A stretch of DNA of 64,000 nt from Sphingopyxis macrogoltabida (GTDB taxonomy: Bacteria; Pseudomonadota; Alphaproteobacteria; Sphingomonadales; Sphingomonadaceae): positions 558,501-622,500 of the forward strand of contig NZ_CP009429.1 of the NCBI RefSeq assembly GCF_001314325.1, in the 5' to 3' direction. The position numbers were made by a program, and so were the translations under genes. Below the pieces are notes generated by a model that saw nothing but the letters and a program-made list of their open reading frames with translations, did no database searches and was not told the DNA's origin. Below, in pieces: positions 33,436 through 54,935 of the stretch (the first letter of the stretch is position 1; each line of letters begins with the position of its first letter).

Positions 33436-33461
33436 GCTATTTAATCGATTGATTAAATAGC
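33436..33461. promoter_or_regulatory. Perfect 26-bp palindrome, TTRRTCGATTGATTAA family (site A)
   Basis: GCTATTTAATC (33436-33446) and GATTAAATAGC (33451-33461) are exact reverse complements around GATT. The 16-bp core TTAATCGATTGATTAA is shared, with variation, by five other promoter sites at 41419, 41543, 44750, 44819 and 54920. It lies just upstream of the DUF2889-like/ligase operon. Confidence 0.7.
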
Positions 33462-33504
33462 TGTGTCAGCTTGGGGAGGAGGCGTCAAGCCGCCTGTGAT
33501 GGCC

Positions 33505-34113
33505 TCAGCGGATTTCGCTGCCTGCGAGCAGGGGTTGGACGATGAAACGCCGGATGAAGCGGCGCTTTTCGGCGTCGTCGATCTGCGGCGAAGCGACCTG
33601 CAGCATCAGCATCGCCTGCGCCCGCGCGAGCCAGTAGATGCATTCGTCGATTTCGAGGTCGGTCGCGATGTCGCCGCGGGCGCGCGCCTGTTCGAACATG
33701 TTCGCCCACCAGGTGCGCTGCAATTGCTGCATCAGGCTGCTGGGCGAGATCACCGATTCCTGAAACTCGATGCTTTCGACCATGCGGCGAATATAGATAT
33801 TTTCGTTCGCCAGCCGGATCACGAGCAACAAAGTGTCGGACAGGAAGTCGGCGAAATCGTCGGAACGCACCAGCCGCCGCCGAACCTCGCTGTTGACCCG
33901 CCACGTCTCGCGCACCGAAATCTCGTCGAGGATCGCATCCTTGCTCGGATAATATTTATAGACGGTCGGACGCGACACCTTGGCGCGGCTCGCGATATTC
34001 TCGATCGTCGTCTTGCCGATCCCATATTGCTCGAAACAATCATAGGCGGCGCGCAGGATGCGCTCCTGCGTCGAATTGTCGTCCGTCCGGGCTGCCACCG
34101 GGCCGCTGTCCAT
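33505..34113 (-). CDS. TetR-family transcriptional regulator
   Basis: 202 residues from the ATG at 34113, which has AGGAGA upstream; an earlier ATG at 34149 is possible. The helix-turn-helix is TTIENIASRAKVSRPTVYKYYPSK. It is paralogous to the regulator at 22569-23195. It lies between a molybdopterin oxidoreductase gene and the DUF2889-like/ligase operon on the same strand. It is a leading candidate to bind the palindrome at 33436, 44 bp beyond its own stop, and the five matching sites downstream. The alternative is the TetR at 43722-44366. Confidence 0.9.
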   Translation of the reverse strand: MDSGPVAARTDDNSTQERILRAAYDCFEQYGIGKTTIENIASRAKVSRPTVYKYYPSKDAILDEISVRETWRVNSEVRRRLVRSDDFADFLSDTLLLVIRLANENIYIRRMVESIEFQESVISPSSLMQQLQRTWWANMFEQARARGDIATDLEIDECIYWLARAQAMLMLQVASPQIDDAEKRRFIRRFIVQPLLAGSEIR

Positions 34114-34196
34114 CACCTGATCTCCTGCCCCGCGACGGGAATGCTGCATCGCGTCGTCGTTAGCAAGGTCGGTATCGCGAACAAGTCGCAAATTTG

Positions 34197-36311
34197 TCAC
34201 GCTGCGGCGGCGATCTTGCGGACCGATACTTCCAGTCCGTCCATGATCGTCGTGCCCGAGATCGCCTCGACCGCCTCCGGACCGACCGGCAGCAGCCAGT
34301 TGATATTGCTGCCGCCCTGCGCATTGGCGTGCTGCCAGCCGCCGTGGTGGCCCCAACCGTGCGGATAGCTGACGGTGCCGGGGCGCATATCATCGGTGAC
34401 CGCGATGCATACAGTGACCATCGCGGCGCCGGTCGACAGGTCGACGGCCTCGCCATCGTGCAAGTCTAGCCGCGCGGCGTCCTCGGGATGCATCAGCAGT
34501 TCGGGATGCTGGCTGCGGACGAGGCGCGGGACATTGTGCAGCCAGCTGTTGAGCGAACGGATGTCGCGGTGCGTGATCAGGCGCAGCGTATCGGTCGGTG
34601 CGGGCGTCAGCCGCGCGAACTCGTCGGCGATCATCGCGTGCCACAGCTTCGCGCGCCCGTCGGCGATGCGCGGCCATGGATCATAGGGATCGGGCAGGTC
34701 GACCATCACGCCGTGCGGCACGTCGCGGAGCTTGTCGAAGCTCCATCCCTCGCGCGCGCCCATGTCGTCGCCGGCGGGGCCGAGGCGGAAGGCCTTGTCG
34801 AGATCGTCCATCGGCCGGCCGTGCGTCGGTTTGCCCATGCGCGCGAGCAGGCCGTTGAAAATCTCCCATTCCGATCTGGCTTCGCCGACCGGCGGGATCA
34901 CCGCATCGGTCACCTGCACGAAGGGACGGATCATCGAGCCCAGTCCCGCCATCGGATAATCGTCGCGTTCGAAAAAGGTCGGGACGGGCAGGATATAGTC
35001 GGCGTAGCGGTTGCTTTCGGTCTGGTAGAGGTCGAGCGCGACGATCAGGTCGAGTTGCCCAAGCGCGTCGACCAGCGCCTGCCCGCCGGGCGCCGACATC
35101 ACCATATTGCCGCCGGTCAGGATCATCGCGCGCACCTGCCCCTCGCCGGGTTCCAAAATGTCCGCGGGCAGCATCGCCGAGGCGAGGAATTGCGCGACGC
35201 TGGGGAAGTCGCCGACGCGGCTGCGTGTGTCGCCATAGCCGCCGGTCAGCACCTTCTGCGATCCGCCGAGGATCGTGCGGCTGAAGATCGCGCCGCCGGG
35301 GCGCCCCAGCTTGCCGCCGAGCAGGTTGAGCGCGATCAGCAGGAAATTCTCGAGCGTCGCATGCGGCCCACGGCAGACGCCGAGCCGGCCATAGGCGACG
35401 GCGCGCGGGGTGGCGGCGAAGCTGCGCGCGAGCTCGGCGATGGTGCCCGCGTCGACGCCCGCGCGGCCGGCGCAGTCGACGAGGTCGTATTGCGCGACCG
35501 TGGACGCGAGGTCCGCGAAGCTATCGGTATGCGCGGCGACATAGTCGGCATCGTACAATTCTTCGTCGATCAGCACGCGGAGCAGCCCGAGCAGGAGCCA
35601 GACGTCGCCGTTGGCGCGTACCGCGACATGCTGGTAGCGGCGCGCAGTCTCGGTGCGGCGGGGGTCGACGACGACGACGCGTCCGCGTTCGGCGATCGCG
35701 TCGAGGTCGTGGCGCACGCGCGGCGACCAGACCATCGATCCGTTGGAAACCAGCGGATTGGCGCCGAACATCAGCAGCATGTCGGTATGCGGCAGGTCTG
35801 GAATGTCATAGGTCACCGCCGAGCCGAAAGCGAGATAACAGGCGGTCAGCCGCGCATTGGTATCCTGCGATCCCGCGCCATAATATTTGGTGATGCCGAG
35901 CGTCCCCAGGAATGCCTTGAGGCTGAACGACACGTCGATGCCGAAGGCGATCGGATTGCCCTTGTACGACGCGACCGCGTCGGGCCCGTGGGTGTCGATC
36001 ACTTGGCCGAGCCGCGCCGCAATATCGTCGAGCGCTTCGTCCCAGCCGACGGGTGCGAATTCGCCCGGTCCGCCGACGCGCTTCAGCGGGGTCAGGATGC
36101 GGTCGGGGTCGTAGGTGACATTGTGGAAGGTGATCCCCTTCAGGCAGACATGGCCCAACGAATGCGGATTTTCCTTGTCGGGCTGGACGTCGGTGATGCG
36201 GCCGTCCTCGACTTTGGCGGCGAGCCCGCAATGCGCTTCGCAGAGGCGGCAGAAGGTGACATGCACCCCGTCCTCTCCGGGCTGGAGCCGCTTGGTCTGG
36301 CTCTCGGTCAT
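34197..36311 (-). CDS. Molybdopterin oxidoreductase, copy 2 (DMSO-reductase family)
   Basis: 704 residues with GAGGGG upstream. [4Fe-4S] ligands are C21, C24, C28 and C56. MFGANPLVSNGS, VVVDPRRTETARR and ICRGPHAT-like VCRGPHAT belong to the bis-MGD fold, and the C-terminal domain has SYPHGWGHHGGW. The sequence YYGAGSQDTN places serine S148 at the likely metal-ligand position, as in YGTYS of DMSO reductase. There is no Tat leader and no partner subunit gene. It is divergent from an aldehyde dehydrogenase. It is most similar to the copy at 41575, which shares the AGSQDTNAR string, and less so to the copy at 13323. Confidence 0.9.
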   Translation of the reverse strand: MTESQTKRLQPGEDGVHVTFCRLCEAHCGLAAKVEDGRITDVQPDKENPHSLGHVCLKGITFHNVTYDPDRILTPLKRVGGPGEFAPVGWDEALDDIAARLGQVIDTHGPDAVASYKGNPIAFGIDVSFSLKAFLGTLGITKYYGAGSQDTNARLTACYLAFGSAVTYDIPDLPHTDMLLMFGANPLVSNGSMVWSPRVRHDLDAIAERGRVVVVDPRRTETARRYQHVAVRANGDVWLLLGLLRVLIDEELYDADYVAAHTDSFADLASTVAQYDLVDCAGRAGVDAGTIAELARSFAATPRAVAYGRLGVCRGPHATLENFLLIALNLLGGKLGRPGGAIFSRTILGGSQKVLTGGYGDTRSRVGDFPSVAQFLASAMLPADILEPGEGQVRAMILTGGNMVMSAPGGQALVDALGQLDLIVALDLYQTESNRYADYILPVPTFFERDDYPMAGLGSMIRPFVQVTDAVIPPVGEARSEWEIFNGLLARMGKPTHGRPMDDLDKAFRLGPAGDDMGAREGWSFDKLRDVPHGVMVDLPDPYDPWPRIADGRAKLWHAMIADEFARLTPAPTDTLRLITHRDIRSLNSWLHNVPRLVRSQHPELLMHPEDAARLDLHDGEAVDLSTGAAMVTVCIAVTDDMRPGTVSYPHGWGHHGGWQHANAQGGSNINWLLPVGPEAVEAISGTTIMDGLEVSVRKIAAAA

Positions 36312-36423
36312 CGCCTGCCCCTCATGAATCGCCTCTCATATCTAATAGTATTTGATTATCGCCGCAAATGGTGCAAATCCGGGGACGGGAACCGGATTTC
36401 CGAACGATATGGGCGAGGGTAAA
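36312..36423. promoter_or_regulatory. Divergent promoter region without a recognised operator
   Basis: 112 bp between the molybdopterin oxidoreductase and aldehyde dehydrogenase starts. A 30-bp AT-rich stretch (about 36332-36362) is the likely promoter. None of the three repeated operator motifs of the window is present in recognisable form. Confidence 0.3.
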
Positions 36424-37848
36424 ATGGACTTTGCGAGCAACTACACGCTGACCATCGATGGCGCTGCGGTCGACACCGCGGAGCGCGTCGACGTGATCAA
36501 TCCCGCGACGGGCAAGGCCTTTGCCTCGGCGCCCGCGGCCGGGCAGGCCGAGCTCGACCTCGCGGTCGCCGCGGCGAAGCGCGCGCTGCCGGCGTGGAAG
36601 GCGCTCGGCTGGGAGGGACGGCGCGAATTGCTGGTCAAAGCGGCGAAGGCGATCGAACCGCATCTCGACCAGTTCGCTGCCCTGTTTGTCGCCGAACAAG
36701 GGCGACCGACCGCGCTCGCCAAGGGTGAGGTGCAGATGGGCGCCTGGTGGCTGAAGTCGGTCGCGCGGCAGGACCTGCCCAACGAGGTGGTCGAGGACAG
36801 CGACACGCGCCAGGTGATCGTCAAGCACGAGCCGCTGGGCGTCGTCGCCGCGATCGTACCGTGGAATTTCCCGTTCCTGCTCGCGATGTGGAAGATCGCG
36901 CCGGCGCTGCTCGCGGGCAACACGATGGTGCTCAAACCGTCGCCCTACACCCCGCTCTGCTCGCTGAAGCTCGCCGAACTGTGGCGCGATATCCTGCCGG
37001 CCGGTGTCTATAATGTCATTTCGGGCGACGATGCGCTCGGCCCGCTGATGACCGCGCATCCGGGCTTTGCGAAGATCAGCTTCACCGGCTCGACCGCGAC
37101 GGGCAAGCGCGTGATGGAGGCGGCATCGCGCGACCTCAAGCGCATCACGCTCGAACTTGGCGGCAACGACGCCGCGATCGTGCTGCCCGACGTCGACGTG
37201 GCGGAGGTCGCGCCGAAACTCTTCTTCGGGTCCTTCTACAACACGGCGCAGGTCTGCATCGCGACCAAGCGCATGTATATCCACGACGATATCTATGACG
37301 AGATGCTGGCCGCCTTCCACCGGCTCGCGAAGGAGGCGGTCGTCGGCGACGGGGCGCAGCAGGGGGTGCAATATGGTCCGGTCCAGAACCGTGCCCAATA
37401 TGACCGCGTCCGCGGCCTGATCGACGGCGCGCGCGCCGAGGGGCTGAGCTTGCTGCAGGGCGCCAACGTGCCCGAGGGCGACGGCTATTTCATCCCGATC
37501 ACGCTCGTCGACAACCCGCCCGAGGATGCGGCGGTGGTGACCGAGGAAGCCTTCGGCCCGGTGCTGCCGCTGCTGCGCTTTTCGAGCATCGAGGATGTCG
37601 TCGAGCGCGCGAACAATTGCGATTACGGCCTTGCGGGCGCGGTCTGGTCGAAGGATATCGACGCGGCGGTCGCGCTCGCCGACCGGATCGAAACCGGCAC
37701 CGTCTGGATCAACGACAATTTCCAGAACGGCCCACATATCCCCTTCGCGGGGGCGAAGCAGTCCGGGTTCGGAGTCGAGAATGGCGCCGAGGGCCTGCGC
37801 GAATTCACCTTTCCGAAGGTGATCTTCGTGCCGAAGAAACCGGCCTGA
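36424..37848 (+). CDS. NAD(P)-dependent aldehyde dehydrogenase
   Basis: 474 residues from the ATG at 36424, with GCGAGGG upstream; in-frame ATGs at 36352 and 36409 lack one. It oxidises an aldehyde to the carboxylate. Catalytic residues are N148 in VPWNFP, E244 in LELGGND and C278 in NTAQVCIATKR. TGSTATGK is the cofactor-loop motif. The length is at the short end of the family. It would supply the acid used by the CoA ligases, downstream of P450 and GMC steps. It converges on the acyl-CoA dehydrogenase pair. Confidence 0.94.
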   Translation: MDFASNYTLTIDGAAVDTAERVDVINPATGKAFASAPAAGQAELDLAVAAAKRALPAWKALGWEGRRELLVKAAKAIEPHLDQFAALFVAEQGRPTALAKGEVQMGAWWLKSVARQDLPNEVVEDSDTRQVIVKHEPLGVVAAIVPWNFPFLLAMWKIAPALLAGNTMVLKPSPYTPLCSLKLAELWRDILPAGVYNVISGDDALGPLMTAHPGFAKISFTGSTATGKRVMEAASRDLKRITLELGGNDAAIVLPDVDVAEVAPKLFFGSFYNTAQVCIATKRMYIHDDIYDEMLAAFHRLAKEAVVGDGAQQGVQYGPVQNRAQYDRVRGLIDGARAEGLSLLQGANVPEGDGYFIPITLVDNPPEDAAVVTEEAFGPVLPLLRFSSIEDVVERANNCDYGLAGAVWSKDIDAAVALADRIETGTVWINDNFQNGPHIPFAGAKQSGFGVENGAEGLREFTFPKVIFVPKKPA

Positions 37849-37889
37849 CGGGCGAGGGCGCATCGGCGGTTCCGGCATGCGCGCCCGGC

Positions 37890-38906
37890 CTAAATCCCGG
37901 CGATCCGGGCGAGGTGCCAGTCGCTATCCGCCCACAGCACCTCGATCGCCATCGCGCGCTTCACATAATGGCCGACCGGCAGTTCGTCGGTCATGCCCAT
38001 GCCGCCGTGAAGCTGGATCGCCTGCTGCCCGACGAAGCGGCAGGCGCGGGCGACATTGACCATCGCGCTCGACACCGCTCGGGCGCGTTCGGGCGCCGCT
38101 TCCCCGAGCGCCTCGACCGCGAGCCATGCCGACGAGCGTGCCAGCTCGCATTCGAGATACATGTCGACCATGCGGTGTTGGAGCGCCTGAAAGCCGGCGA
38201 TCGGCTGGCCGAACTGGCGCCGCTGGCCGGTGTAGGCGATCGTCTGTTCGAGCAGGTTGTCGAGCAGGCCCACCGCCTCGGCCGCTAGCAACGCGAGCGC
38301 GCGGTCGCGGGCTTCTTCGAGCAGGTCGAGCGCGCCGCCTTCGGGGCCGATCAGGGCATCGGCGGGGAGGGCGTGGTTCTCGAAAACCAGATCGGCGGCG
38401 GGGTGGCTGTCGATCGTCCGGTACGGCGACAGCCGGAGGCCTTCGGTCCGGGCTGGGTCGATCCGGAAGAGCGACAGCGCGTCGGCGCCGGTGTGCGCGG
38501 CGACCAATAGGACATCGGCTTCGGCCGCCCAGCCGACGACCGCCTTGGTCCCGTCGAGGCGCCAGCCGTCGCCGTCGCGCCGTGCGTGCGTCTCGATGCC
38601 CGCAAAATCATAGCGCATAGCCGGCTCGGCCCAAGCGAGGGTCGCGATTGCCGTGGCGGGCAAGGCCGGGGCGTTGCAGCGATCGAGCAGCCACGCCGCC
38701 GTCGCCACGTCGGCGAAGGGCAGATGCGCGCGCGTGCGGCCGATCTCTTCGGCGATGATCGCACCCTGTTGCGCGTCGAGCAGCGCGGCGTCGATGCCGA
38801 GCCGTTCGGCAAAATCGGGCCAGCGAGGAGCTTCGTCCCTGCCCAGATACGCCCGCACCGCGTCCCGCAGCATCGTCTGTTCGGTTTCGGATAGCGGGGC
38901 GCTCAT
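37890..38906 (-). CDS. Acyl-CoA dehydrogenase, short subunit of a pair
   Basis: 338 residues, shorter than the roughly 380 of homotetrameric enzymes. RRQFGQPIAGFQALQHRMVDMY and IQLHGGMGMTDE are the C-terminal FAD/tetramer-interface motifs. It overlaps the preceding, longer acyl-CoA dehydrogenase gene by ATGA. Short plus long pairs of this kind form alpha2beta2 enzymes in steroid side-chain degradation (FadE/ChsE type), where each subunit contributes half of the FAD site. The same arrangement recurs at 54992-57332. It is third in the operon P450 - acyl-CoA dehydrogenase - acyl-CoA dehydrogenase. Confidence 0.9.
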   Translation of the reverse strand: MSAPLSETEQTMLRDAVRAYLGRDEAPRWPDFAERLGIDAALLDAQQGAIIAEEIGRTRAHLPFADVATAAWLLDRCNAPALPATAIATLAWAEPAMRYDFAGIETHARRDGDGWRLDGTKAVVGWAAEADVLLVAAHTGADALSLFRIDPARTEGLRLSPYRTIDSHPAADLVFENHALPADALIGPEGGALDLLEEARDRALALLAAEAVGLLDNLLEQTIAYTGQRRQFGQPIAGFQALQHRMVDMYLECELARSSAWLAVEALGEAAPERARAVSSAMVNVARACRFVGQQAIQLHGGMGMTDELPVGHYVKRAMAIEVLWADSDWHLARIAGI

Positions 38907-40093
38907 CGTGCCATCCCCGCCAGCGAACGCCAGATGATATTCTTCTGCACCTCGGTCGAGCCGCCGTAGATCGTCTGGGCGCGCTCGAAGAGATAGGATT
39001 GCACGGCCACCGGGCCGAACGGCGTGGTCGCCGGCGCCGCCGCTGCCCAGTCGGCCTCGCCGCGATCGAGCATCGGCAGCCGGTTACGGCCGGCGACGTC
39101 GATGCCCAACTCGGTGATCGCCTGCGCGCATTCGGTGCAGGCGATCTTGAGCGCCGCGGCGGTCGCCATCGAAATCTCGCTGCGCAGCGCGCGCAGGATC
39201 GAGGCCTCGATCGCCGCGAGCCGCGCCGCGACGCGGGCATGGGCGAGACGGAAAGCCGGGTCGCGGTCCATCGTGCCGCCGCCGTTCGCGGGCAGCCGTC
39301 CCGCTTCTTCGAGCAGCTTGGCGAGATCGCGCTTCTTCGATCCGATATGCGCGTAGGACAGGCGCTCGTTCTTGAGCAGGACATTGGCATAGTGCCAGGC
39401 CTGACCCTCGTCGCCGATGCGGTTGGTGACCGGCACGCGGACATTGTCGAATTCGATGCGATTGAGCTCGTCCGACCCGTCGATCAGCCGGATCGGGTGG
39501 ACGCTGATCCCGGGCAGGTCCAGCGGCGCGCAGATCAGCGAAATGCCCTGCTGCTTGCGCTCCTCGCGGCTGGTGCGCGCGAGGCAGAATATCCAGTCGG
39601 CCCACTGCGCGCCCGACGTCCAGATCTTCGTGCCGTTGAGGATATAATCGTCGCCGTCGCGCACCGCCGAAAAGCGCAGCGAGGCGAGATCGGAGCCGGC
39701 TTCGGGCTCCGAATAGCCCTGCGCCCAGAAACTGCGCGATTCGAGGATCGCGGGCAGCCAGTCGGCCTTCTGCTGGTCCGATCCGAACGCCGCGATGATC
39801 GGCCCGATATAGATCACCGCCATCGGAATGATCGCGGCGGCGTGCGCCAGTTCGAGTTCCTGATCGAAGATATAGCGTTCGGCCGGCGTCCAGCCGGTGC
39901 CGCCGACCTCGCGCGGCCAGCCGACGCCGAGCCAGCCGCGCGCGTTCAGCGCGCGCTGCGCGTCGATATGGTCCTGCTTGGTAAGCCGCTGTCCCGCCTT
40001 GTTCCTGGCGATGACGTGCGCGGGATAGTCGCGTGCGAAAAACGTCCGCACGGCATCGCGAAACTCGGTTTCTTCGGCAGTCAGTTTGAGCAC
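38903..40093 (-). CDS. Acyl-CoA dehydrogenase, long subunit of a pair
   Basis: 396 residues from a GTG at 40093 (VLKLTAEETEFRDAVR), which fits the family N-terminus; ACAGGA lies upstream. The ATG at 40138 would add 15 residues that do not look like the family. The FAD/substrate motif QGYSEPEAGSDLASL is near 150-165. The C-terminus has AQTIYGGSTEVQKNIIW, where the residue after Tyr is Gly, not the Glu base of medium-chain acyl-CoA dehydrogenase. The catalytic base may therefore lie elsewhere or in the partner subunit. It lies between the P450 and short-subunit genes in one operon. Confidence 0.9.
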   Translation of the reverse strand: MLKLTAEETEFRDAVRTFFARDYPAHVIARNKAGQRLTKQDHIDAQRALNARGWLGVGWPREVGGTGWTPAERYIFDQELELAHAAAIIPMAVIYIGPIIAAFGSDQQKADWLPAILESRSFWAQGYSEPEAGSDLASLRFSAVRDGDDYILNGTKIWTSGAQWADWIFCLARTSREERKQQGISLICAPLDLPGISVHPIRLIDGSDELNRIEFDNVRVPVTNRIGDEGQAWHYANVLLKNERLSYAHIGSKKRDLAKLLEEAGRLPANGGGTMDRDPAFRLAHARVAARLAAIEASILRALRSEISMATAAALKIACTECAQAITELGIDVAGRNRLPMLDRGEADWAAAAPATTPFGPVAVQSYLFERAQTIYGGSTEVQKNIIWRSLAGMAR

Positions 40094-40150
40094 GTCGGGA
40101 TCCTGTCGACAGGGTGGGACAGCGGGTTGCGGCCCCACCCTAGAACATGG

Positions 40151-41347
40151 TCAGGACGCGCGGAAGGTGACCGGCAGCGTTTTGAGCACCCGCGATTCCC
40201 CGACCGCGAAATCGGGCTGGAAATCGGAGCGGATCTTGAGGTCGGGCAGGCGCTCGAAGATCGAGCGGATCATCATTTCGAGCAGCGCCTTGGCGAAATG
40301 CTGGCCGATGCAGATATGCGCGCCGCCGCCGAAGCCCAGATGATCGTGCTCGCTGCGCACTGCCCGGTCGAAGCGGACCTCGTTGGGGTCGGCGAAATGG
40401 CCGGGGTCGTGGTTCGCGGCGCCGTTCATCGCCATGATGTAATCGCCGGCCTTGAGCGGACAGCCCTCGAGCTCGGTGTCGCGCGTAACGGTGCGCCGCA
40501 ACCCCTGGATCGGCGAGGCGTAGCGCACGAATTCCTGCAGCGCGGTCGGGAAATCGATTTCGCCGCTCAGCAGCTTTGCGCGCTCCTCGGGATGTTCGAT
40601 CAGGTACCAGAGCGACATGCCCGCGACCGCGCTGGTCGTGTCGAGCCCGCCGAACAGCACCAGCGTCGCGATGCCGACGATTTCGTCATCGGTCAGCTTT
40701 TCACCGCCGATTTCGGCGTCGATCAGCGTCTGCATCAGATCGTCCTCGGGCGGCGACTGCCGCCGCCGCGCGGCAAATTCATACAGATACTGGCTGAGCT
40801 CGAGGCCATATTGGCCGCAGGTTTCGGGATCCTCGACGCGCATGCGGGTGAGGAAGTCGATCTTGTGCGACAATATTTCCCAGTCCGCGCGGGGCACGCC
40901 GAGGAAGGGCATGATCACCGTCGCGAGCGTCGGGCGGACGAGCTGTTCCTGCAATTCGGCCTCGCCGGCCGGGACGATCGCGTCGAGCAGCTCGGTGATG
41001 ATCGCCTCGAAACGCGGGCGATATTTCTGGATCGCGTCGGGCAGGAAGATCGGGTTGAGCAGCTTGCGCATCCGCGTCTGCTGCGGCGGGTCGAGGTCGA
41101 TGGGATAGAGCGCCAGCGGCTGCTTGGGCAGTGCGGTGCCGTCGGCCGAACTGAAGGTCCGGAAATCGTCATAGACGCGGCGCGTCGCGGCATAGTTGGT
41201 GGTGTACCAGAAGCCGCCAAGCTGTTCCGAGCGTGCGACCGGACAGCCGCCGGCGCGGACCTTGTCATAGAAGTCATAGGGGCGCTGCATCAGCGTGCGG
41301 TCGTGCTGGCTGAATTCTTCCACCGCATAGTCTTTGACGTCCGCCAT
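40151..41347 (-). CDS. Cytochrome P450 monooxygenase
   Basis: 398 residues from the ATG at 41347, with GAGAGGA upstream; the ATG at 41395 would extend into the promoter. It is a class I bacterial P450. The I-helix FGGLDTTSA is at about 232-240, ExxR is E272-R275, and haem segment FGGGAHICIG holds C346. The DLDPPQQTRMRKLLNPIF region is typical of camphor- and terpene-type P450s, but that does not fix the substrate. The likely electron donor is the 2Fe-2S ferredoxin at 44393-44713, which carries the same operator motif in its promoter. It is first in an operon with two acyl-CoA dehydrogenases. Confidence 0.95.
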   Translation of the reverse strand: MADVKDYAVEEFSQHDRTLMQRPYDFYDKVRAGGCPVARSEQLGGFWYTTNYAATRRVYDDFRTFSSADGTALPKQPLALYPIDLDPPQQTRMRKLLNPIFLPDAIQKYRPRFEAIITELLDAIVPAGEAELQEQLVRPTLATVIMPFLGVPRADWEILSHKIDFLTRMRVEDPETCGQYGLELSQYLYEFAARRRQSPPEDDLMQTLIDAEIGGEKLTDDEIVGIATLVLFGGLDTTSAVAGMSLWYLIEHPEERAKLLSGEIDFPTALQEFVRYASPIQGLRRTVTRDTELEGCPLKAGDYIMAMNGAANHDPGHFADPNEVRFDRAVRSEHDHLGFGGGAHICIGQHFAKALLEMMIRSIFERLPDLKIRSDFQPDFAVGESRVLKTLPVTFRAS

Positions 41348-41418: not shown

Positions 41419-41434
41419 TCAACCAATCGATTAA
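41419..41434. promoter_or_regulatory. Operator-like site, TTRRTCGATTGATTAA family (site B)
   Basis: Read on the minus strand the site is TTAATCGATTGGTTGA, identical to the first 11 bases of site A. It lies 72 bp upstream of the P450 start, in the divergent promoter shared with the molybdopterin oxidoreductase gene. Confidence 0.6.
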
Positions 41435-41542: not shown

Positions 41543-41558
41543 GGTTCTAACCGATCAA
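41543..41558. promoter_or_regulatory. Operator-like site, TTRRTCGATTGATTAA family (site F)
   Basis: On the minus strand it reads TTGATCGGTTAGAACC, the most divergent member, but with the TTRRTCGRTT core. It ends 17 bp before the ATG of the molybdopterin oxidoreductase gene, next to its ribosome-binding site. Confidence 0.4.
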
Positions 41559-41574
41559 CTAACTGGAGCGAATC

Positions 41575-44749: not shown

Positions 44750-44765
44750 ACTTTCAATCGATCAA
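44750..44765. promoter_or_regulatory. Operator-like site, TTRRTCGATTGATTAA family (site C)
   Basis: On the minus strand: TTGATCGATTGAAAGT, preceded by ATTAA. It lies 37 bp upstream of the ferredoxin start in the 127-bp divergent promoter shared with the GMC gene, which holds a second copy (site D). Confidence 0.55.
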
Positions 44766-44818
44766 TTAATATTGCATGGTGACGGTGTCAACGAATGCGC
44801 TTATGCAGCGCAAATTAA

Positions 44819-44834
44819 TTAGTCGATTGATGGA
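44819..44834. promoter_or_regulatory. Operator-like site, TTRRTCGATTGATTAA family (site D)
   Basis: TTAGTCGATTGATGGA ends inside the ribosome-binding site GGAGAGG of the GMC gene (ATG at 44841). A protein bound here would sit at the very start of the transcript, so repression is more likely than activation. Confidence 0.6.
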
Positions 44835-47215: not shown

Positions 47216-47225
47216 GGAACTGCCG

Positions 47226-48002
47226 ATGACCACCGAACCGACGCTGATCGTCGCCACCCCCACGCCGGGCGTGCTGCACCTGACCTTCAACCGGCCCGAC
47301 GTGCACAACGCCTATGACACGCCGACCTTTACGGCCTTTGCCGAACAGCTCGACCGCGCCGCGAGCGATCCCGATATCCGCGCCATCGTGATCAGCGCGC
47401 GCGGGGGAAAGGCGTTCAGCGCCGGTTTCGACATCCATGAGATGGCCGGCTTCGATGCCGCCACGATGCGCCGCGCCTTCGAGACGCGCGATCCGGTGTT
47501 CGGCCGCGTCGCCGCACATCCGCTGCCGATCATCGCCGCGATCGACGGCATCTGCTTCGGCGCGGGCGCGCTGCTCGCGCTCGCCTGCGACATGCGCATC
47601 GCCACCCCCGGCTTTCGCTTCAAGGTCACCGCCGTCGGCTATGGCTGCGCCAACGCAACCTGGTCGCTGCCGCGCGCGGTCGGCGCGCCGCGCGCCAAGG
47701 CGATCCTGATGACCGGGCAGGTCGTCGGAGCCGAGGAGGCAGAGCGCATCGGGCTGGTCAATGCGGTCGTCGAAGCGTCCGAACTCGACGCGCATGCCAT
47801 CGCGCTTGCCTCGGCCATCGCCGGGCATCCGCCGCAGGGGATCAAGGGCATCAAGACGCTCGTCGACGGCAGCCTGACGCGCTCGCCGATCGAGGGCTGG
47901 CAGGCCGAATATGACTGGATGATCGCCAGCATGACCGACGCCCCGGGGGGCGGCGAGACGTTCGGAAAATTCCTGTCCGAGCACGACGACCACAAACGCT
48001 GA
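47226..48002 (+). CDS. Crotonase-fold protein without canonical glutamates
   Basis: 258 residues from the ATG at 47226 with GAGGA upstream. TFNRPDVHNAYD, ISARGGKAFSAGFDIHEM and ICFGAGALLALACDMRIA mark the crotonase fold. L116 and A136 occupy the positions of the two catalytic glutamates, so the reaction is unlikely to be simple enoyl-CoA hydration. The G-F-D of SAGFDI could supply an acidic residue, as in some crotonase hydrolases and lyases. Being next to another non-canonical crotonase suggests a paired or sequential role. It may be part of an aldolytic or hydrolytic route, since an aldehyde dehydrogenase gene follows 21 bp later. Confidence 0.85.
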   Translation: MTTEPTLIVATPTPGVLHLTFNRPDVHNAYDTPTFTAFAEQLDRAASDPDIRAIVISARGGKAFSAGFDIHEMAGFDAATMRRAFETRDPVFGRVAAHPLPIIAAIDGICFGAGALLALACDMRIATPGFRFKVTAVGYGCANATWSLPRAVGAPRAKAILMTGQVVGAEEAERIGLVNAVVEASELDAHAIALASAIAGHPPQGIKGIKTLVDGSLTRSPIEGWQAEYDWMIASMTDAPGGGETFGKFLSEHDDHKR

Positions 48003-48023: not shown

Positions 48024-49508
48024 ATGATCGGCCAAGCCAACGCGCAGGTGGCGCATCCCGACCGGCTTTTCATCGGCGGACGCTGGATTCCCGTCGAGGG
48101 TAGCGCTCGCTTCACCGTGACCAACCCCGCGACCGAGGAAGCGTTCGGCGAAGTCGTCGCGGCAGGCGCGCCCGAGGTCGAGCGCGCGGTCGCGGCGGCG
48201 CGCAAGGCGTTCGACGAGGGTCCTTGGCCGCGGATGTCCGCCGCCGAGCGCGCAACCTACATGCGCGCCTTGTCGCAGGCGCTGCAGCGCCGCGGCGCCG
48301 CGCTCGACAGCGCGTGGATTTCGCAGGTCGGGGTGCCGATCTGGATGGCGCAGGGCTCGGGGGCGGGCACCGCGGGGCTGCTCGATTATTATGCCGGGCT
48401 CGCCGAGGCCTATCCGTTCGAGGATGTCCGCCCGTCGAATGGCATGATGTCGAAGGTTGCGGTAGTTGTGCGTGAGCCTGTCGGCGTCGTCGCGGCGATC
48501 GCGCCGTGGAACGGCCCGCTCGCCTCGCTGCTCATCAAGCTCGCTCCCGCGCTCGCGACCGGATGCACCGTCATCCTGAAACCCGCGCCCGAAACCCCGC
48601 TCGAGGCGTTCATGCTCGCCGAGGCCGCCGAGGAGGCGGGCTTCCCCGAAGGTGTGATCAACCTGCTGCCCGCCGACCGCGAGGCGTCGGACCTGCTCAT
48701 CCGCCATCCTGGCGTCGACAAGGTCGCCTTCACCGGCTCGACCGAGGTCGGGCTGCATATCGCGCAGGTCTGCGCCGGCCGCATGGCGCGCTTCACGATG
48801 GAACTGGGCGGCAAGTCGGCGGCGATCGTGCTCGACGATTTCGAGCCCGAGGCGATGGGCCCCGCGCTGGCGCCGATGATCACCCTGCTCTGCGGCCAGG
48901 TGTGCATCAATTTCAGCCGCGTGCTCGTGCCCAGAGCGCGCAAGGATGCCTATGTCGAAAGCCTTGCCGCGGCAATGGCGGCGACCAGCATCGGCGACCC
49001 ACTCGACGCGAACACGATGATGGGCCCGCTCGCGATGGCGCGGCACCATGCCAAGGTGTCGAGCTATTTCGACAAGGGCGTCGCCGAGGGCGCGCGCATC
49101 GCCACCGGCGGCCGCCGCCCGCCCGCGCTCAACAGCGGCTATTATGTCGAGCCGACGGTGTTCGCTGATGCGACCAACGACATGGCGATCGCACAGGAGG
49201 AAATCTTCGGCCCCGTCACTGCGGTCATCCCCTATGACAGCGTCGAGGAAGCGATCGCTATCGCCAACGACAGCCAGTTCGGCCTGTCGGGTGGCGTTTA
49301 TACGCACGACACCGATCGCGCCTATGGCGTCGCGCGGCGTATCCGCACCGGCCATTTCACCCAGAACGGGCGCGATTTCGACCTGACCAATCCCTTCGGC
49401 GGCTTCAAGAAATCGGGCGTCGGGCGCGAGGGCGGACCCGAAGGCATCGAGCCCTTCACCGAGGTCAAGACCGTGTTCCTGCCGCAGGCGCCGAGCGTAC
49501 TCGCATGA
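48024..49508 (+). CDS. NAD(P)-dependent aldehyde dehydrogenase
   Basis: 494 residues, with a good GGAGAG before the ATG. Catalytic residues are N163 in APWNGP, E260 in MELGGKS and C294 in GQVCINFSR. TGSTEVG is the cofactor loop. The length and C-terminal GGFKKSGVGREGG are typical of the broad-substrate aldehyde dehydrogenase family. In this operon it would oxidise the aldehyde from the GMC enzyme or from a C-C cleaving crotonase. It overlaps the SDR gene by ATGA. Confidence 0.95.
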   Translation: MIGQANAQVAHPDRLFIGGRWIPVEGSARFTVTNPATEEAFGEVVAAGAPEVERAVAAARKAFDEGPWPRMSAAERATYMRALSQALQRRGAALDSAWISQVGVPIWMAQGSGAGTAGLLDYYAGLAEAYPFEDVRPSNGMMSKVAVVVREPVGVVAAIAPWNGPLASLLIKLAPALATGCTVILKPAPETPLEAFMLAEAAEEAGFPEGVINLLPADREASDLLIRHPGVDKVAFTGSTEVGLHIAQVCAGRMARFTMELGGKSAAIVLDDFEPEAMGPALAPMITLLCGQVCINFSRVLVPRARKDAYVESLAAAMAATSIGDPLDANTMMGPLAMARHHAKVSSYFDKGVAEGARIATGGRRPPALNSGYYVEPTVFADATNDMAIAQEEIFGPVTAVIPYDSVEEAIAIANDSQFGLSGGVYTHDTDRAYGVARRIRTGHFTQNGRDFDLTNPFGGFKKSGVGREGGPEGIEPFTEVKTVFLPQAPSVLA

Positions 49509-50287
49509 GCATTTATGTCGCCGGCCTGTTCGACGTCGCGGGCAAGCGCGCGCTGGTCACCGGCGCGACCTCGGGCATCGGCCGGATGATCGCGCGCGGG
49601 CTGGCGCAGGCGGGTGTCGAAGTGTGGGTCGTCGCGCGCGGCGCCGACGACGTCGATGCGATTGTCGGGGAATTGGGCGGCAAGGCGCAGGGTGTCGTGG
49701 CTGATGTCGCGACCGAGGACGGCATCGCGCGGATCGCCGAGGCGCTCGGCGACCGGCCGCTTCATATCCTCGTCAACAATGCGGGGACCGATCGCCCGAC
49801 CCCGCTCGACGCCGAGGGGCGCGAGGATTTCGACGCGGTGCTTGGGCTCAACCTCACCGCGCCCTTCCTGCTGACGCGCAAACTGCTCCCGCAGCTCGAA
49901 GGCGCCGCCAGCCCCGGCGATCCGGCGCGCGTGATCAACATCGCCTCGATCGCCGCCCTCAATCCCGGCCATCTCGAAAATTTTGCTTATGCGTCGAGCA
50001 AGAGCGGGGTCGCGATGATGTCGCGCCATCTCGGCCGCCATCTCGCCAAGCGCAACATCAGCTGCAACGCGATCGCGCCGGGGCTCTTTCCGTCGCGGCT
50101 GACCGAGCAATTTCTCGGTATGGGGGAGGCGGACGAGGTCCCCAAGGCGTTCGTTTCGCCGCTCGGTGCACGGGCGGGCGAGATGGACGATATCGCGGGC
50201 GCGGTGATCTATCTTTCGTCGCGCGCGGGCGCCTGGGTGACCGGCGTGCTACTCCCGGTGAGCGGAGGGATTTCAACCGTTAGTTGA
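49505..50287 (+). CDS. Short-chain dehydrogenase/reductase (SDR)
   Basis: 260 residues. Cofactor motif TGATSGIG at 19-26, NNAG at 91-94, catalytic S148, Y162 and K166 (YASSK). It lacks an Arg directly after the TGxxxGIG, but R28 and R45 nearby leave NADP use possible. In the operon it would oxidise the 3-hydroxyacyl-CoA or another secondary alcohol. It is the last gene of the GMC operon. A REP-like palindrome follows its stop and may mark the transcript end. Confidence 0.93.
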   Translation: MSIYVAGLFDVAGKRALVTGATSGIGRMIARGLAQAGVEVWVVARGADDVDAIVGELGGKAQGVVADVATEDGIARIAEALGDRPLHILVNNAGTDRPTPLDAEGREDFDAVLGLNLTAPFLLTRKLLPQLEGAASPGDPARVINIASIAALNPGHLENFAYASSKSGVAMMSRHLGRHLAKRNISCNAIAPGLFPSRLTEQFLGMGEADEVPKAFVSPLGARAGEMDDIAGAVIYLSSRAGAWVTGVLLPVSGGISTVS

Positions 50288-50390: not shown

Positions 50391-50440
50391 GACGTTGGGA
50401 AACATCAGCTAGCGGGCCTAACCGCCCGTCCGACGCAATC

Positions 50441-51604
50441 CTAATCCACCCCGAAGATTGCCGAACTGATCGTCGGCGCGCCGGGTCCGCCGGCGAGCAG
50501 ACAGGTCTGCGCGTTCGGCACCGGGTTCGGGCTTTCGCCGCGCAGGCAGCGCACCGCTTCAACCGCGGTGACAAAGCCGTGGACGAAGCCATGCGCGAGG
50601 TTCCCGCCCGAGGTGTTGACCGGCAGCTTGCCCGACGGCGCGATCAGATTCTCGAAGCGCACGACCTCGGCGACATTCTCATAGGTGCAGAAACCGTGAT
50701 CGATCAGCGACGCGATGCCCTGCGCGCTGAAATTCTCATAAAGCTGGACGACGTCGATATCGGCGGGGGTCAGCCCGGCGGTGCCGTAGAGCCGGTCGCG
50801 GATGGCGCGGAAGCCGGCGGTCGGATAGAGGTCGGTCGCGTCGTTTTCGAGCAGGTCGCCATAACCTGCTTCGGTGCCCTGTGCGACCGACAGCAATTTG
50901 ACCGGTTTCTTCTTCAGGTCGCGCGCCATCTCGGTCGACACGAGCAGGATCGCCCCGGCACCGTCGTTCTCGCGGCTGCAATCGAACAGGTGGAAGGGTT
51001 CGGCGATGATCCGCGAGCCGCGATATTCTTGCGTGTCGAACTCTTTGCCATAGGCGACCGCTTCGGGATTGCGGCTGCCGTGGTAATAGGAAGCGCGGAC
51101 CAGTTCCTCGCACAGCTCGTACGGCACGCCGTGATATTCGAACATCCGCTGCGCACGCATCGCGCAGACCTGCGCGGGCGCGAGGATGCCCGACGACACC
51201 ATATGGTCGTTGAGGTGGTGCGCCATCACGGCGGCCGACAGCCGCCCGCTATTGCCCTCGACCAGTGCGCGGAACACGACGACGGCGCGCGCCTGGCCGG
51301 TCAGGATCGCCGAGGCAGCGATGCCGAAGGCGCCAGCGATGCCGCCGCCGCCGCCGCCCCACACCTGCGCCGACCAGTTGATCGCCTTGGTGCCGAGATC
51401 GGGCATCAGCCGCACGGGCTCGTTCTTGTCGTCGCCATAGGAGACGAAGCCGTCGACGTCGGCAGGGTCGAACCCCGCATCCTCGCATGCATCGACGATC
51501 GCGCGGACGAGCACGCCGCGCTCGGGCAGGGGCGCGGTGCCGCGCTTGTACTGGCGATAGCCGACGCCGGCGGCCGCCGTCAGGCCGGACAGATTGGGGG
51601 TCAT
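50441..51604 (-). CDS. Thiolase-superfamily protein, Ltp2-like (no nucleophilic Cys)
   Basis: 387 residues. VWGGGGGGIAGAFGIAASAI occupies the position where thiolases carry the acyl-accepting cysteine, and it has Gly instead. VQLYENFS replaces the NEAF segment, and NTSGGNLAHGFVHG with EAVRCLRG ends the protein. This pattern matches lipid-transfer/SCP2-type thiolase-like proteins such as Ltp2, which cleave a side chain by retro-aldol reaction together with a DUF35 partner. The DUF35 gene overlaps its start by ATGA. A thioester-cleaving thiolase reaction is unlikely. It converges on the SDR gene. Confidence 0.87.
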   Translation of the reverse strand: MTPNLSGLTAAAGVGYRQYKRGTAPLPERGVLVRAIVDACEDAGFDPADVDGFVSYGDDKNEPVRLMPDLGTKAINWSAQVWGGGGGGIAGAFGIAASAILTGQARAVVVFRALVEGNSGRLSAAVMAHHLNDHMVSSGILAPAQVCAMRAQRMFEYHGVPYELCEELVRASYYHGSRNPEAVAYGKEFDTQEYRGSRIIAEPFHLFDCSRENDGAGAILLVSTEMARDLKKKPVKLLSVAQGTEAGYGDLLENDATDLYPTAGFRAIRDRLYGTAGLTPADIDVVQLYENFSAQGIASLIDHGFCTYENVAEVVRFENLIAPSGKLPVNTSGGNLAHGFVHGFVTAVEAVRCLRGESPNPVPNAQTCLLAGGPGAPTISSAIFGVD

Positions 51605-52011
51605 GCAAGTCTCCAGCGCAGCGCAGGAATTTCTGCGTCACCGAAGGCGGTGCGCGCGATGGTGCCGGCGACGGGGGCGCCGATCTTCAGGCCCGCTTCG
51701 TCGCCTTCGAGCACGCCGACCAGGCGCACCGGCACGGCATCGAGGGTGACGACGAGCGTCGCAAAGGGTTTGGCAAAGGCTTCGGTGCCGCCGAAGGGGT
51801 GGTGGGTGCGGGTGTATGTGAAGACCGTGCCGGTCAGCGGCTGCTCGACCCATTCATGGTCCCAGCCGCCGCACGCGCTGCAACGCCAGACCGCCGGCCA
51901 ATGCCAGTGTCCGCATCCCGTGCAGCGCGGCAATTCGAGCCGCCCTTCCAGAAGCGCATCCCAATAGCGCCCTTCGGCGCCGATCGGGCCCGTTGCCGAA
52001 TGATAGGTCAT
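51601..52011 (-). CDS. DUF35/OB-fold protein with zinc ribbon
   Basis: 136 residues. The N-terminal rubredoxin-like zinc ribbon has C30, C33, C45 and C48 (CTGCGHWHWPAVWRCSACGG). An OB-fold follows (TGTVFTYTRTHHPFGG). DUF35 proteins bind acyl-CoA and pair with thiolase-like enzymes, as ChsH2 does with Ltp2 in steroid side-chain cleavage. Translational coupling (ATGA) to the thiolase-like gene supports the same complex here. Its promoter carries TCTA-N7-TAGA, which relates it to the regulon of the 2.5-8.3 kb region and not to its neighbours. Confidence 0.9.
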   Translation of the reverse strand: MTYHSATGPIGAEGRYWDALLEGRLELPRCTGCGHWHWPAVWRCSACGGWDHEWVEQPLTGTVFTYTRTHHPFGGTEAFAKPFATLVVTLDAVPVRLVGVLEGDEAGLKIGAPVAGTIARTAFGDAEIPALRWRLA

Positions 52012-52060
52012 TCGCCCCGCATCCTTTCCCGCCGCTCTCCAGCGGCCATTGCATCATTTA

Positions 52061-52075: not shown

Positions 52076-52141
52076 TTCGATGCCGACGTGCAATGGTGAA
52101 GTGCGCGGGACGGGATAACGCCCGCGCGGAGGGGAGAGACG

Positions 52142-52516: not shown

Positions 52517-52531
52517 ACGCGACGGAGAGCC

Positions 52532-54829
52532 CTATTTGGGATGCCCCGTCGCGGTCACGGGTTCGCGGCTTGCCATATGCGCCTCGGCCTGTTGCCGGGT
52601 CAGTTCGGCAAGCGGCTCGAGGACGGCATTATCCTTGAGCGCGTCGATGCCCGCTGGGTCGACACCCAGCCAGTCGGCGATGACCTCTGCGCTCTGCTCG
52701 CCGCTCAGCGGCGCGGGGCGAGGGGGCGGCGCGGGCAGGTCGCTGGTCCGCGCGATATAGGCATCGCCGAACACGTCTTCCTGCAGCCAGGGGTGACCTT
52801 CGATCCGGTAGAAGCCGCGTTCGCGATAATAGGGAAAATCGGGAAGTTCGGAGAGGCGCAGCATCGGGGCGGCGGCGATGCCCGCCGCCTGCAGCATCTC
52901 CGCTGCCTCATATGGCGTGCGGTCGGCCAGCCAGGCCTCGATCCGCTCGTCGATCGCGCCCCGCGCGGCAAGCCGCTTGGCCGCGGTATCGAACGCCGTT
53001 CCCTCGACATAGCCGATGGTGTCGCACAATCGCGCCCAGTCTGCGTCGGACTCGACGGTGATCACGCACCATTCGTCGTCGCCCGCAGTGCGATAGGCGG
53101 CCCACGGCCAGTCAGTCGGGGCACCGCCCGCCGGCGTGCCGCGCACGACGTCGGCGGCGAAATGGCCGATCATCACCTCTGACTGCGCGACCTTGGCGAC
53201 CCCGCCCAGCCCGGTGCGCAGCCGTCGGATCAATAGCGCCGCAACGCCGATCGCGCAGATGCGGCCCGCGACATGGTCGGGATAGACGGTGATCGAATCG
53301 CTGAAGCTCTGCGGGTCGTCGGGGTAGCGCCAAGCAAGCGTCAGCCCGGTCGACGCACGGACGAGCGGACCATAGCCCATGCGCCCGCTCCACGGCCCGG
53401 TGTCGCCGAAGGCCGAGCTTTCGGAAACGACGATCCGCGGGTTGATCGCGCGCAGTTCGGCTTCGCCGAGGCCCAGCTTCTCCATCGTGCCGGGTTTGAA
53501 ATTCGAGCAGACGACGTCGGCCTGTTTGACGAGGTCGAGGAACAATGCGCGCCCGGCCTCGCTGCGCAGGTCCAACCCCAGGCTGCGCTTGTTACGATGG
53601 CCGGCCGCGAAGCTGACCGACATGCCATGCTCCAGATAGGATTGGCGGCTGCCGTCGGGGAAGGCCTGGCTTTCGATCTTGATCACATCGGCGCCGAAAT
53701 CGCCGAGCAACCGCGCGCCCTCGGCGCCGACGACGATGACGCCAAGGTCGAGGACCTTGAGGTCGCCAAAGGGGGCGAGGGGAGGAACTTCGCTCGCCGC
53801 GGGAAAGGCGACGTCTTCCGGGGCAGAGAGCGGCCCCATACGCGCGCCGTCGATGGTCAGGAAGCCGTTGGGCAGCCGCGTTCCATCGCCGAGCGTCGCC
53901 ACCGCCTCGCGCGCCGCCGCATGATCGCTGTCGAGAAACTCGCCGAGCGTCAGCACCGACGCGATCGGCACGCCATGCTCCTGCCCCTCGCGCTCGAGAT
54001 CGACGCGATGCTTGTCGGCGAAGAAGCCTGCAATATAGGGAAGGAGGTCGGCCGACGCATAACGGTGCGACGTCCGGTCGAAATCGGGCGAGGCGAACTG
54101 CTCGGGCTCGCCCATCCAGCGGAACATGCCGCGCCACTGCCGCTTCGCGAGCAAACAGATTCGTACATAGCCGTCGGCGCAGCGCATGATCGGATATTGA
54201 AAACCGGCGCGCGGCCGATCGCGGAGCAGCAGCCCGACCGGCTTGCCCATCGTCGCGCTGCCATTGATGCCGAAGCCCGGATCGAGACCTTGTACCGCGC
54301 CGTCGAGCGCCGCGAAGTCGAAATGCGCGCCTGCGCCGCCGCTCAAGCTCCGATAGAGCGCGCCGAGCAGCGCAAAAACGGCCTGCGGGGCTGCGCATTG
54401 GTAAGCAAGATCGCCGGGCGGGATCAGCGGCTCGCGGCCGCGGATGCCCGAACGCGACAGCACGGCGGACAGCGCGTGAAGGACCGGGCCGGTCGCGCGC
54501 CAGTTCGCCAGCGGGCCGTTTTCGCCGAAGTCGCTGACGGACATGGTGACAAGCGCGGGTCGGTCGCGGCGCAGCGCAGCGAGGTCGATGCCCGCCGAAC
54601 GATCGGCGATGACGATATGCGCTCGTTCGATGAGAGCGGAGGTTTCGGTCAGCGCTTCGACGTGAATCCGTTTGCCTGCTTGCGCGACGATTGTTTCCGC
54701 ACCGCGATCCGCATCGGACGCGAAGCTGTCGACCTGCGCGCCCAGATCGGCAAGATAGCGTCCGATCATCGCCAGCGGACCGCGCACGCTTTCGACGATG
54801 CGAACGCCGGAAAGCGGTCGGTTGGACAT
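52532..54829 (-). CDS. Fused two-domain CaiB/BaiF (class III) CoA-transferase-like protein
   Basis: 765 residues from the ATG at 54829 (AAAGGTA upstream). It is twice the normal length of the family: domain 1 covers about 1-345 and domain 2 begins at about 355 with DLKVLDLGVIVVGAEGARLLGD-type sequence and FGADVIKIES. Both halves align with class III CoA-transferases, but the GYD/GHD aspartate that forms the acyl intermediate is missing in both. Domain 1 reads ATGPVLHALS, domain 2 GYGPLVRAST. Class III enzymes are normally dimers of interlocked subunits, so fusion would make a permanent heterodimer. It shares a divergent promoter and site E with the acyl-CoA dehydrogenase operon at 54992. Confidence 0.88.
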   Translation of the reverse strand: MSNRPLSGVRIVESVRGPLAMIGRYLADLGAQVDSFASDADRGAETIVAQAGKRIHVEALTETSALIERAHIVIADRSAGIDLAALRRDRPALVTMSVSDFGENGPLANWRATGPVLHALSAVLSRSGIRGREPLIPPGDLAYQCAAPQAVFALLGALYRSLSGGAGAHFDFAALDGAVQGLDPGFGINGSATMGKPVGLLLRDRPRAGFQYPIMRCADGYVRICLLAKRQWRGMFRWMGEPEQFASPDFDRTSHRYASADLLPYIAGFFADKHRVDLEREGQEHGVPIASVLTLGEFLDSDHAAAREAVATLGDGTRLPNGFLTIDGARMGPLSAPEDVAFPAASEVPPLAPFGDLKVLDLGVIVVGAEGARLLGDFGADVIKIESQAFPDGSRQSYLEHGMSVSFAAGHRNKRSLGLDLRSEAGRALFLDLVKQADVVCSNFKPGTMEKLGLGEAELRAINPRIVVSESSAFGDTGPWSGRMGYGPLVRASTGLTLAWRYPDDPQSFSDSITVYPDHVAGRICAIGVAALLIRRLRTGLGGVAKVAQSEVMIGHFAADVVRGTPAGGAPTDWPWAAYRTAGDDEWCVITVESDADWARLCDTIGYVEGTAFDTAAKRLAARGAIDERIEAWLADRTPYEAAEMLQAAGIAAAPMLRLSELPDFPYYRERGFYRIEGHPWLQEDVFGDAYIARTSDLPAPPPRPAPLSGEQSAEVIADWLGVDPAGIDALKDNAVLEPLAELTRQQAEAHMASREPVTATGHPK

Positions 54830-54919
54830 GGACTTACCTTTCTGTTCGGCGCTCGGCCGGGCGCAAAATCGTCCGGCTGGGATCACGGGCGCTTGCCATA
54901 TCCGGGCCGCGAAGAAAAG

Positions 54920-54935
54920 TTAATTAATCGACTAA
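54920..54935. promoter_or_regulatory. Operator-like site, TTRRTCGATTGATTAA family (site E)
   Basis: On the minus strand: TTAGTCGATTAATTAA, 15 of 16 bases fitting the consensus. It lies between the fused CoA-transferase (91 bp) and the acyl-CoA dehydrogenase operon (57 bp), so it could control both. Confidence 0.6.

Follow-up and report, generated by a model that had tools for sequence, protein, structure and literature searches.

A 64,000-nucleotide stretch of the 5.75-Mb Sphingopyxis macrogoltabida genome (C1:558501-622500; hereafter, the window) carries a catabolic gene cluster in which six near-palindromic sites, each matching the pattern TTARTYRATYRAYTAA with at most two mismatches and each located between called genes, fall within a 21.5-kb stretch. 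We predict with high confidence that the six sites are operators of TetR2, a TetR-type repressor encoded within the cluster, which probably regulates its own synthesis through site 4. Taken together, sites and repressor constitute a real, conserved and probably autoregulated TetR regulon. The sites themselves, their intergenic location, their conservation and their joint occurrence with TetR2-type genes in different gene clusters are observed directly, whereas binding, repression rather than activation, an inducer and the operon limits are inferred. The sites, and the two TetR genes that were weighed as encoding the binding protein, are as follows.

33441-33456, plus strand: site 1, TTAATCGATTGATTAA, in front of the DUF2889 and acyl-CoA ligase genes (minus strand)
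41419-41434, minus strand: site 2, TTAATCGATTGGTTGA, in front of the P450 and acyl-CoA dehydrogenase a and b genes (minus strand)
41547-41562, minus strand: site 3, TTAGTTGATCGGTTAG, the weakest site, directly 5' of the molybdopterin enzyme 2 ATG (41575)
44754-44769, minus strand: site 4, TTAATTGATCGATTGA, in front of the ferredoxin and TetR2 genes (minus strand)
44815-44834, plus strand: site 5, with overlapping registers 44815-44830 and 44819-44834, directly 5' of the GMC oxidoreductase ATG (44841)
54920-54935, minus strand: site 6, TTAGTCGATTAATTAA, between the fused CoA-transferase gene (minus) and the acyl-CoA dehydrogenase c and d genes (plus)
43722-44366, minus strand: TetR2, with TetR_N and TetR_C_9 (PF14514) domains, the putative binding protein
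33505-34113, minus strand: TetR1, with a TetR_N domain, the disfavoured candidate

A preliminary description of this DNA had proposed a six-member operator family with the shared core TTRRTCGATT. The exact core is present in five of the six sites and absent from one; these five occurrences in the window compare with 0.46 expected, and none of 100 shuffles reached five. With the 16-mer of that description and up to three mismatches, eight matches at five places were found versus 0.55 expected, and again no shuffle of 100 reached the observed number. The sixth site, 41547-41562, needs four mismatches to this 16-mer. A symmetric weight matrix derived from all six sites gave six window places with scores of at least 15, identical to the six sites, and in a leave-one-out procedure every omitted site outscored all other window positions. 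The six intergenic, enriched sites thus stand, but the register of two of them does not: the palindromic register is 41547-41562 and 44754-44769, 4 bp away from the 41543-41558 and 44750-44765 first given. The site at 44819-44834 is present as placed, with the second register, 44815-44830, overlapping it. The best copy, 33436-33461, had been called a perfect 26-bp palindrome, and is self-complementary at only 24 of 26 bases. For the other five sites, 8-12 of 16 bases match the site's own reverse complement, sites 3 and 5 being poor palindromes (8/16).

Across the whole genome, TTARTYRATYRAYTAA with at most two mismatches gave 14 forward matches, versus six for the reversed-pattern control; the 14 merge to 12 places, half of which are in the cluster. 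At zero or one mismatch all three places are inside the cluster. The 16-mer of the preliminary description, at two or fewer mismatches, is similarly concentrated, with four of its six genomic places in the window. The scan did not turn up the many equally good matches within genes that would speak against an operator family: there are no places outside the window at 0-1 mismatch, and among the six outlying two-mismatch places one lies in an open reading frame (ORF), at the ORF start (L118), and one has no called gene nearby (L117). The earlier statement that no site is inside a gene was confirmed for all six. Controls based on Markov models were less discriminating. At a threshold of 8 the window was not separable from background, and at a threshold of 12 the window had 11 matches versus 2.70, with five stretches of the same genome, picked for holding an outlying site, also in excess (9 versus 2.30). 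After these controls, column-permuted matrices were used as the control for other loci.

Orthologous intergenic regions were aligned, with seven sequences for site 1 and six for the other sites, that of the window included. Invariant columns made up 89 of 100 positions in the sites versus 175 of 420 in the remaining intergenic positions. By region, the figures within and outside the sites were 14/16 versus 33/93 for site 1, 24/32 versus 53/147 for sites 2 and 3, 35/36 versus 41/91 for sites 4 and 5, and 16/16 versus 48/89 for site 6. Because the aligned genomes are close, their TetR2 proteins being 89-100% identical (100% in G315), we read the conservation of the sites as a footprint among near relatives and not as deep conservation.

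Each site had also been said to lie in a promoter. The boxes given here were called against the TTGACA -35 promoter consensus, with no shuffle control. An exact TTGACA at 41422-41417 overlaps site 2; a second exact TTGACA, at 44791-44786, would put site 4 over the -10 region; and with CTGACA at 33469-33464 the -10 region would fall inside site 1. A search for TTGACA-like boxes near sites 3, 5 and 6 gave no clear case, so that promoter-like boxes accompany sites 1, 2 and 4, and a promoter at the other three is putative. Given the boxes at sites 1, 2 and 4, overlap of the sites with -35 and -10 regions would favour repression over activation.

As to the protein that reads the sites, the preliminary description had named either TetR1 or TetR2; the evidence favours TetR2 and disfavours TetR1. 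TetR2 scores 33.2 bits for TetR_N (Pfam cut-off 24) and 93 bits for the PF14514 C-terminal domain (cut-off 25.3), and the latter domain was also found in seven of seven scanned relatives near sites. Eighty genomes of the genus were surveyed for site clusters, a cluster requiring at least three separate places on a single contig within 45 kb. Site clusters were present in 11 of the 80 (G000, G224, G314, G315, G325, G327, G329, G335, G340, G349 and G373); G298-G301 share coordinates with G349, G340, G329 and G335 and were not counted twice. A TetR2-family gene is inside the cluster in all 11 genomes, and a TetR1 gene in seven. Among the remaining 69 genomes, a TetR2-family match (E<=1e-20) was found in 14 and a TetR1 match in none.

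Five of the 11 genomes, G224, G314, G315, G327 and G373, have sites in a gene cluster (cluster B) different from that of the window (cluster A), together with TetR2 relatives of 38-39% and 34% identity. In the G224 and G315 stretches, cluster B has an acyl-CoA dehydrogenase (60%), an aldehyde dehydrogenase (58%) and two TetR2 relatives (40% and 34% in this comparison), along with other genes, of 28-44% identity, for P450, acyl-CoA dehydrogenase, crotonase, SDR and CoA-transferase. TetR1 was not found in the cluster-B stretches of these two genomes. For G314, G327 and G373 the comparison covers site and TetR positions only. Matrix matches of at least 15 numbered 13 in 58 kb of G224 and 13 in 60 kb of G315, with permuted-matrix means of 0.95 and 0.74; 13 matches were reached by 2 of 300 permutations for G224 and by 0 of 300 for G315. 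A site lies ahead of the TetR gene, or of its inferred operon, in seven of seven close orthologues, that of the window included, and in five of five cluster-B relatives. In the recognition-helix segment the cluster-B TetR proteins are identical to TetR2 at 19 of 29 residues, and TetR1 at 7 of 29. G315 holds both clusters, and three of its four TetR2-family genes are beside similar operators (L103-L107). An extra site with a score of 24.2 was seen in a cluster-A genome (L125, G340 C53:146129), with no counterpart seen in the window.

Beyond the genus, sites were found beside some TetR2 relatives. G111 has three relatives, one with a place 154 bp before the matched start (score 14.3), and G099 has two, one with a place at 160 bp (score 16.7); further places lie within 9 kb at both loci. 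In one genus (g87), TTAACCGnGCGTTTAA is located 116-119 bp ahead of the match at three loci and scores 11.4-16.5. G111 also has TTAATCGnnCGATTAA-like palindromes scattered over its genome, which probably belong to another regulator with a similar site. A plasmid search gave nine records, of which four were analysed over stretches of 24.6-40.6 kb with a score threshold of 14. The N. capsulatum plasmid (TetR relative 67.5% identical) has four sites, two of them ahead of the TetR gene; the Sphingobium TomTYG65 plasmid (40%) has four, one of them 37 bp before a three-gene run ending in the TetR gene; and the Sphingobium JS3065 plasmid (38%) has six. The single site of the Novosphingobium EMRT-2 plasmid directly precedes a three-gene run ending in the TetR gene. 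All 15 sites on the four plasmids are intergenic, versus 3.8-13.6% of 16-mers; the resulting product, about 7e-17, is overstated, since some genes are missing from the plasmid gene table and AT-rich sites are biased towards intergenic DNA. TetR2-like proteins of 54-83% identity are among the best 120 of 179 matches, which are protein sequences only. Apart from its own gene, TetR2 had no match at E<=1e-55 among 397 genomes of the family and 385 of the class.

Several observations weigh against TetR2 as the reader of the sites. The cluster-B matches of G224 and G315 are near-identical and so are not independent, and each of the seven cluster-A genomes contains both TetR1 and TetR2, so that these genomes alone cannot separate the two. 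The one site of the EMRT-2 plasmid (TetR relative 37%) is not above the permuted control; for the other loci, the observed count is attained by 0-3.3% of the column-permuted matrices. Among relatives from the family sample, for which loci were taken for the best matches only, 25 of 29 have no score of 14 or more in 400 bp of upstream DNA; among genus relatives outside clusters, the same holds in 450 bp for 17 of 18 with a locus, a 39% relative in G367 included. G367 has two TetR2-family genes (39% and 35%) yet no site cluster, and as many as 18 of the 29 recognition-segment residues are retained in relatives that lack a site. Since this is close to the 19 of 29 of the cluster-B proteins, users of the operator are not predictable from the helix. 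By these comparisons the operator marks a subset of the TetR2 family, most remoter relatives being without a site, and in some relatives the site seems to serve other pathways.

Could TetR1 read the sites, TetR2 having another role? Among the 80 genus genomes TetR1 is confined to the 7 that have cluster A, all of which carry it, and its gene adjoins site 1, the best copy. Site 1, however, is downstream of the TetR1 gene and upstream of the DUF2889 and ligase genes, and the region ahead of the molybdopterin enzyme 1-TetR1 genes carries a different conserved near-palindrome. G224, G314, G327 and G373 all have clustered sites and lack a TetR1 match at E<=1e-20, and TetR1 as sole reader was rejected because no such match is found where clustered sites persist. 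Further, the nearest TetR1 relatives (the seven second copies and G185), at eight loci of about 3.6 kb, show no place above 11.5. Four of eight remoter TetR1-relative loci (9-20 kb) do have a place of at least 15, up to 19.7; we read these scores as a matter of AT-rich composition. That TetR1 is the reader is accordingly improbable. A variant, in which both TetR proteins bind the same sites, as competitors or as a two-input gate, would fit the retention of both genes together in all seven cluster-A genomes, but their recognition segments differ (7/29 identical, as above) and the TetR1 unit has another conserved near-palindrome ahead of it; we consider it quite improbable. The sites might instead be those of a regulator encoded outside the cluster, either global or unlinked. 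The 16-mer TTAATCGATTGATTTT does occur in 11 of the 80 genus genomes, eight of these without a site cluster. In the present genome, however, the six places outside the cluster with at most two mismatches equal the six reversed-pattern control matches, and this explanation is very improbable.

The near-palindrome ahead of the TetR1 unit, ATCTAATAGTATTTGAT, lies at 36340-36356, with molybdopterin enzyme 1-TetR1 on one side and aldehyde dehydrogenase 1 on the other. With up to two mismatches its pattern has only this one place in the genome; it is recognisable in three other genomes, less symmetric in two. That ATCTAATAGTATTTGAT is the operator of TetR1 is at most a fair guess. At L040 and L042 there was no aldehyde dehydrogenase 1 at the corresponding position. 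TetR1 has four close named relatives (89-96% identity), three from Sphingopyxis and one from a Sphingomonadaceae bacterium, and no PF14514 match at 0.001. All seven cluster-A genomes have a second gene of the TetR1 type. A third TetR gene of the window, 22569-23195, encodes a protein 39% identical to TetR1 and adjoins a TonB receptor gene.

Three outlying places were inspected. TTAATCGATTGATTTT occurs at C1:2400534 (L110), roughly 0.4 kb ahead of a TonB receptor gene, and was not linked to the regulon. The place at C1:550673-550692 (score 20.5), 8 kb before the window in the intergenic gap that separates AraC-type and PAPS reductase genes, was not counted as a regulon member, the neighbours being sulfur genes and the match probably due to chance. 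At C2:317799 (L120), a weak site lies between FAA hydrolase and Rieske oxygenase genes in another catabolic region.

The genes of the cluster, apart from the two TetR genes, are as follows.

30997-32607, minus strand: AMP-binding acyl-CoA ligase, site 1 unit
32604-33395, minus strand: DUF2889 protein, first gene behind site 1
36352-37848, plus strand: aldehyde dehydrogenase 1
37890-38906, minus strand: acyl-CoA dehydrogenase b, site 2 unit
38903-40138, minus strand: acyl-CoA dehydrogenase a, Tcur3483-like, site 2 unit
40151-41347, minus strand: cytochrome P450, site 2 unit
41575-43710, plus strand: molybdopterin oxidoreductase 2, behind site 3
44393-44713, minus strand: [2Fe-2S] ferredoxin, putidaredoxin-like by solved structures, no Pfam match at 0.001
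44841-46445, plus strand: GMC oxidoreductase, first gene behind site 5
46445-47215, plus strand: enoyl-CoA hydratase/isomerase 1, site 5 unit
47196-48002, plus strand: enoyl-CoA hydratase/isomerase 2, site 5 unit
48024-49508, plus strand: aldehyde dehydrogenase 2, site 5 unit
49505-50287, plus strand: SDR oxidoreductase, site 5 unit
50441-52011: thiolase/OB pair, no site of its own
52532-54886, minus strand: fused (double) type III CoA-transferase, behind site 6
54992-56098, plus strand: acyl-CoA dehydrogenase c, Tcur3481-like, plus-side unit of site 6
56109-57332, plus strand: acyl-CoA dehydrogenase d, plus-side unit of site 6
57379-58140, plus strand: enoyl-CoA hydratase/isomerase 3 (crotonase), plus-side unit of site 6

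Operon limits are putative and were drawn from intergenic gaps. The ferredoxin and TetR2 genes probably share one operon, the gap between them being only 26 bp. For P450, ATG 41347 seems a likelier start than TTG 41395, because a GAGAGG stretch precedes it and alignments to four orthologous loci span 403-405 of the 414 residues. The antisense ORF at 36322-37878 (minus strand) was rejected as a gene, having no Pfam or NCBIfam match; the real gene is the plus-strand aldehyde dehydrogenase 1. The placement of the sites supports the proposal that one operator family, very probably read by a TetR protein encoded within the cluster, fronts several units of one catabolic cluster. The units so fronted had been described as close to a complete degradation route; this holds only in part, since the thiolase/OB pair, and in 33505-37848 molybdopterin enzyme 1/TetR1 and aldehyde dehydrogenase 1, have no site of the family of their own.

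Comparison with solved structures bears on the pathway. Tcur3483 is matched by acyl-CoA dehydrogenase a and Tcur3481 by acyl-CoA dehydrogenase c, the thiolase and OB protein match chains A and B of 6ok1, and the best of 344 solved-structure matches of the P450 is CYP125MRCA; the acyl-CoA ligase had no solved-structure match at 1e-50. Tcur3481/Tcur3483, 6ok1 and the CYP125 type we take to be enzymes of steroid side-chain removal, and by these matches some enzymes of the cluster resemble steroid side-chain enzymes.

In the mechanism we propose, a TetR2 dimer would bind TTAATYGATCRATTAA-like sites ahead of seven transcription units, covering the -35 and -10 regions at sites 1, 2 and 4 and the stretch just 5' of the start codon at sites 3 and 5. 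It would release the DNA on binding a pathway intermediate, perhaps an acyl-CoA, a free acid or an alcohol, and would control its own ferredoxin-TetR2 unit through site 4. A broader proposal, which we put forward tentatively and think rather unlikely, is that a subset of Sphingomonadaceae TetR_C_9 regulators shares one operator code across catabolic clusters, that two-cluster strains cross-regulate (e.g., G315, with three TetR2-family genes by similar sites), and that the operator is a general handle for sphingomonad catabolic regulons. For a catabolic cluster on which the searches turned up no paper, there is now a likely regulator with its operator. The same operator also accompanies related TetR genes of other clusters and of plasmids in sphingomonads, and some regulons of sphingomonads that degrade pollutants and lipids thereby become predictable from sequence. 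The question is raised of how strains with several such TetR proteins avoid or exploit cross-talk.

Literature searches, in the portions of text that they reached, turned up no paper on this cluster and none on an operator with ATTAATCGAT together with a TetR protein; a search with six spelled motif variants, mostly outside the reach of subscription papers, likewise found no paper. TetR proteins often act as local, autoregulated repressors of catabolic clusters. The present case is like these in having a small helix-turn-helix regulator inside the cluster and near-palindromes before the units, its own unit included, and differs in that the operator and pathway are without a counterpart in the searched literature, mostly non-subscription papers. 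KstR is a TetR regulator over steroid-type catabolic genes; on its model (NF033703) TetR1 scores 24.1 bits, far below the cut-off of 280, and TetR2 has no match. TetR2 also falls well below the cut-offs for RutR (TIGR03613; 46.4 versus 368 bits) and PsrA (NF053516; 40.3 versus 300 bits). Among enzyme systems, the thiolase, the OB protein and acyl-CoA dehydrogenases a and c are like the Ltp2-type lipid-transfer protein with ChsH2(DUF35) and Tcur3481/Tcur3483; unlike in those systems, they are here joined to GMC, aldehyde dehydrogenase, fused CoA-transferase and molybdopterin enzymes. What could be consulted of PMC13273656 concerns an IclR-type repressor. According to the accessible part of PMC5343134, PsrA, FadP and LiuQ are TetR-family proteins that control acyl-CoA degradation genes spread over several operons, FadP and LiuQ being unique to betaproteobacteria among the genomes of that study; control by a TetR protein of acyl-CoA degradation genes across several operons is the feature shared with the regulon proposed here. 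For the bsd I bile-salt cluster of Caenibius tardaugens, the available portion of PMC12882949 proposes that a TetR protein binds the intergenic palindromes ATAGGGCCATTG and GCATGCGGGATGC. Compared by site sequence, these differ from the present motif; the likeness is that in both cases a sphingomonad TetR protein is proposed to act on palindromes between catabolic genes.

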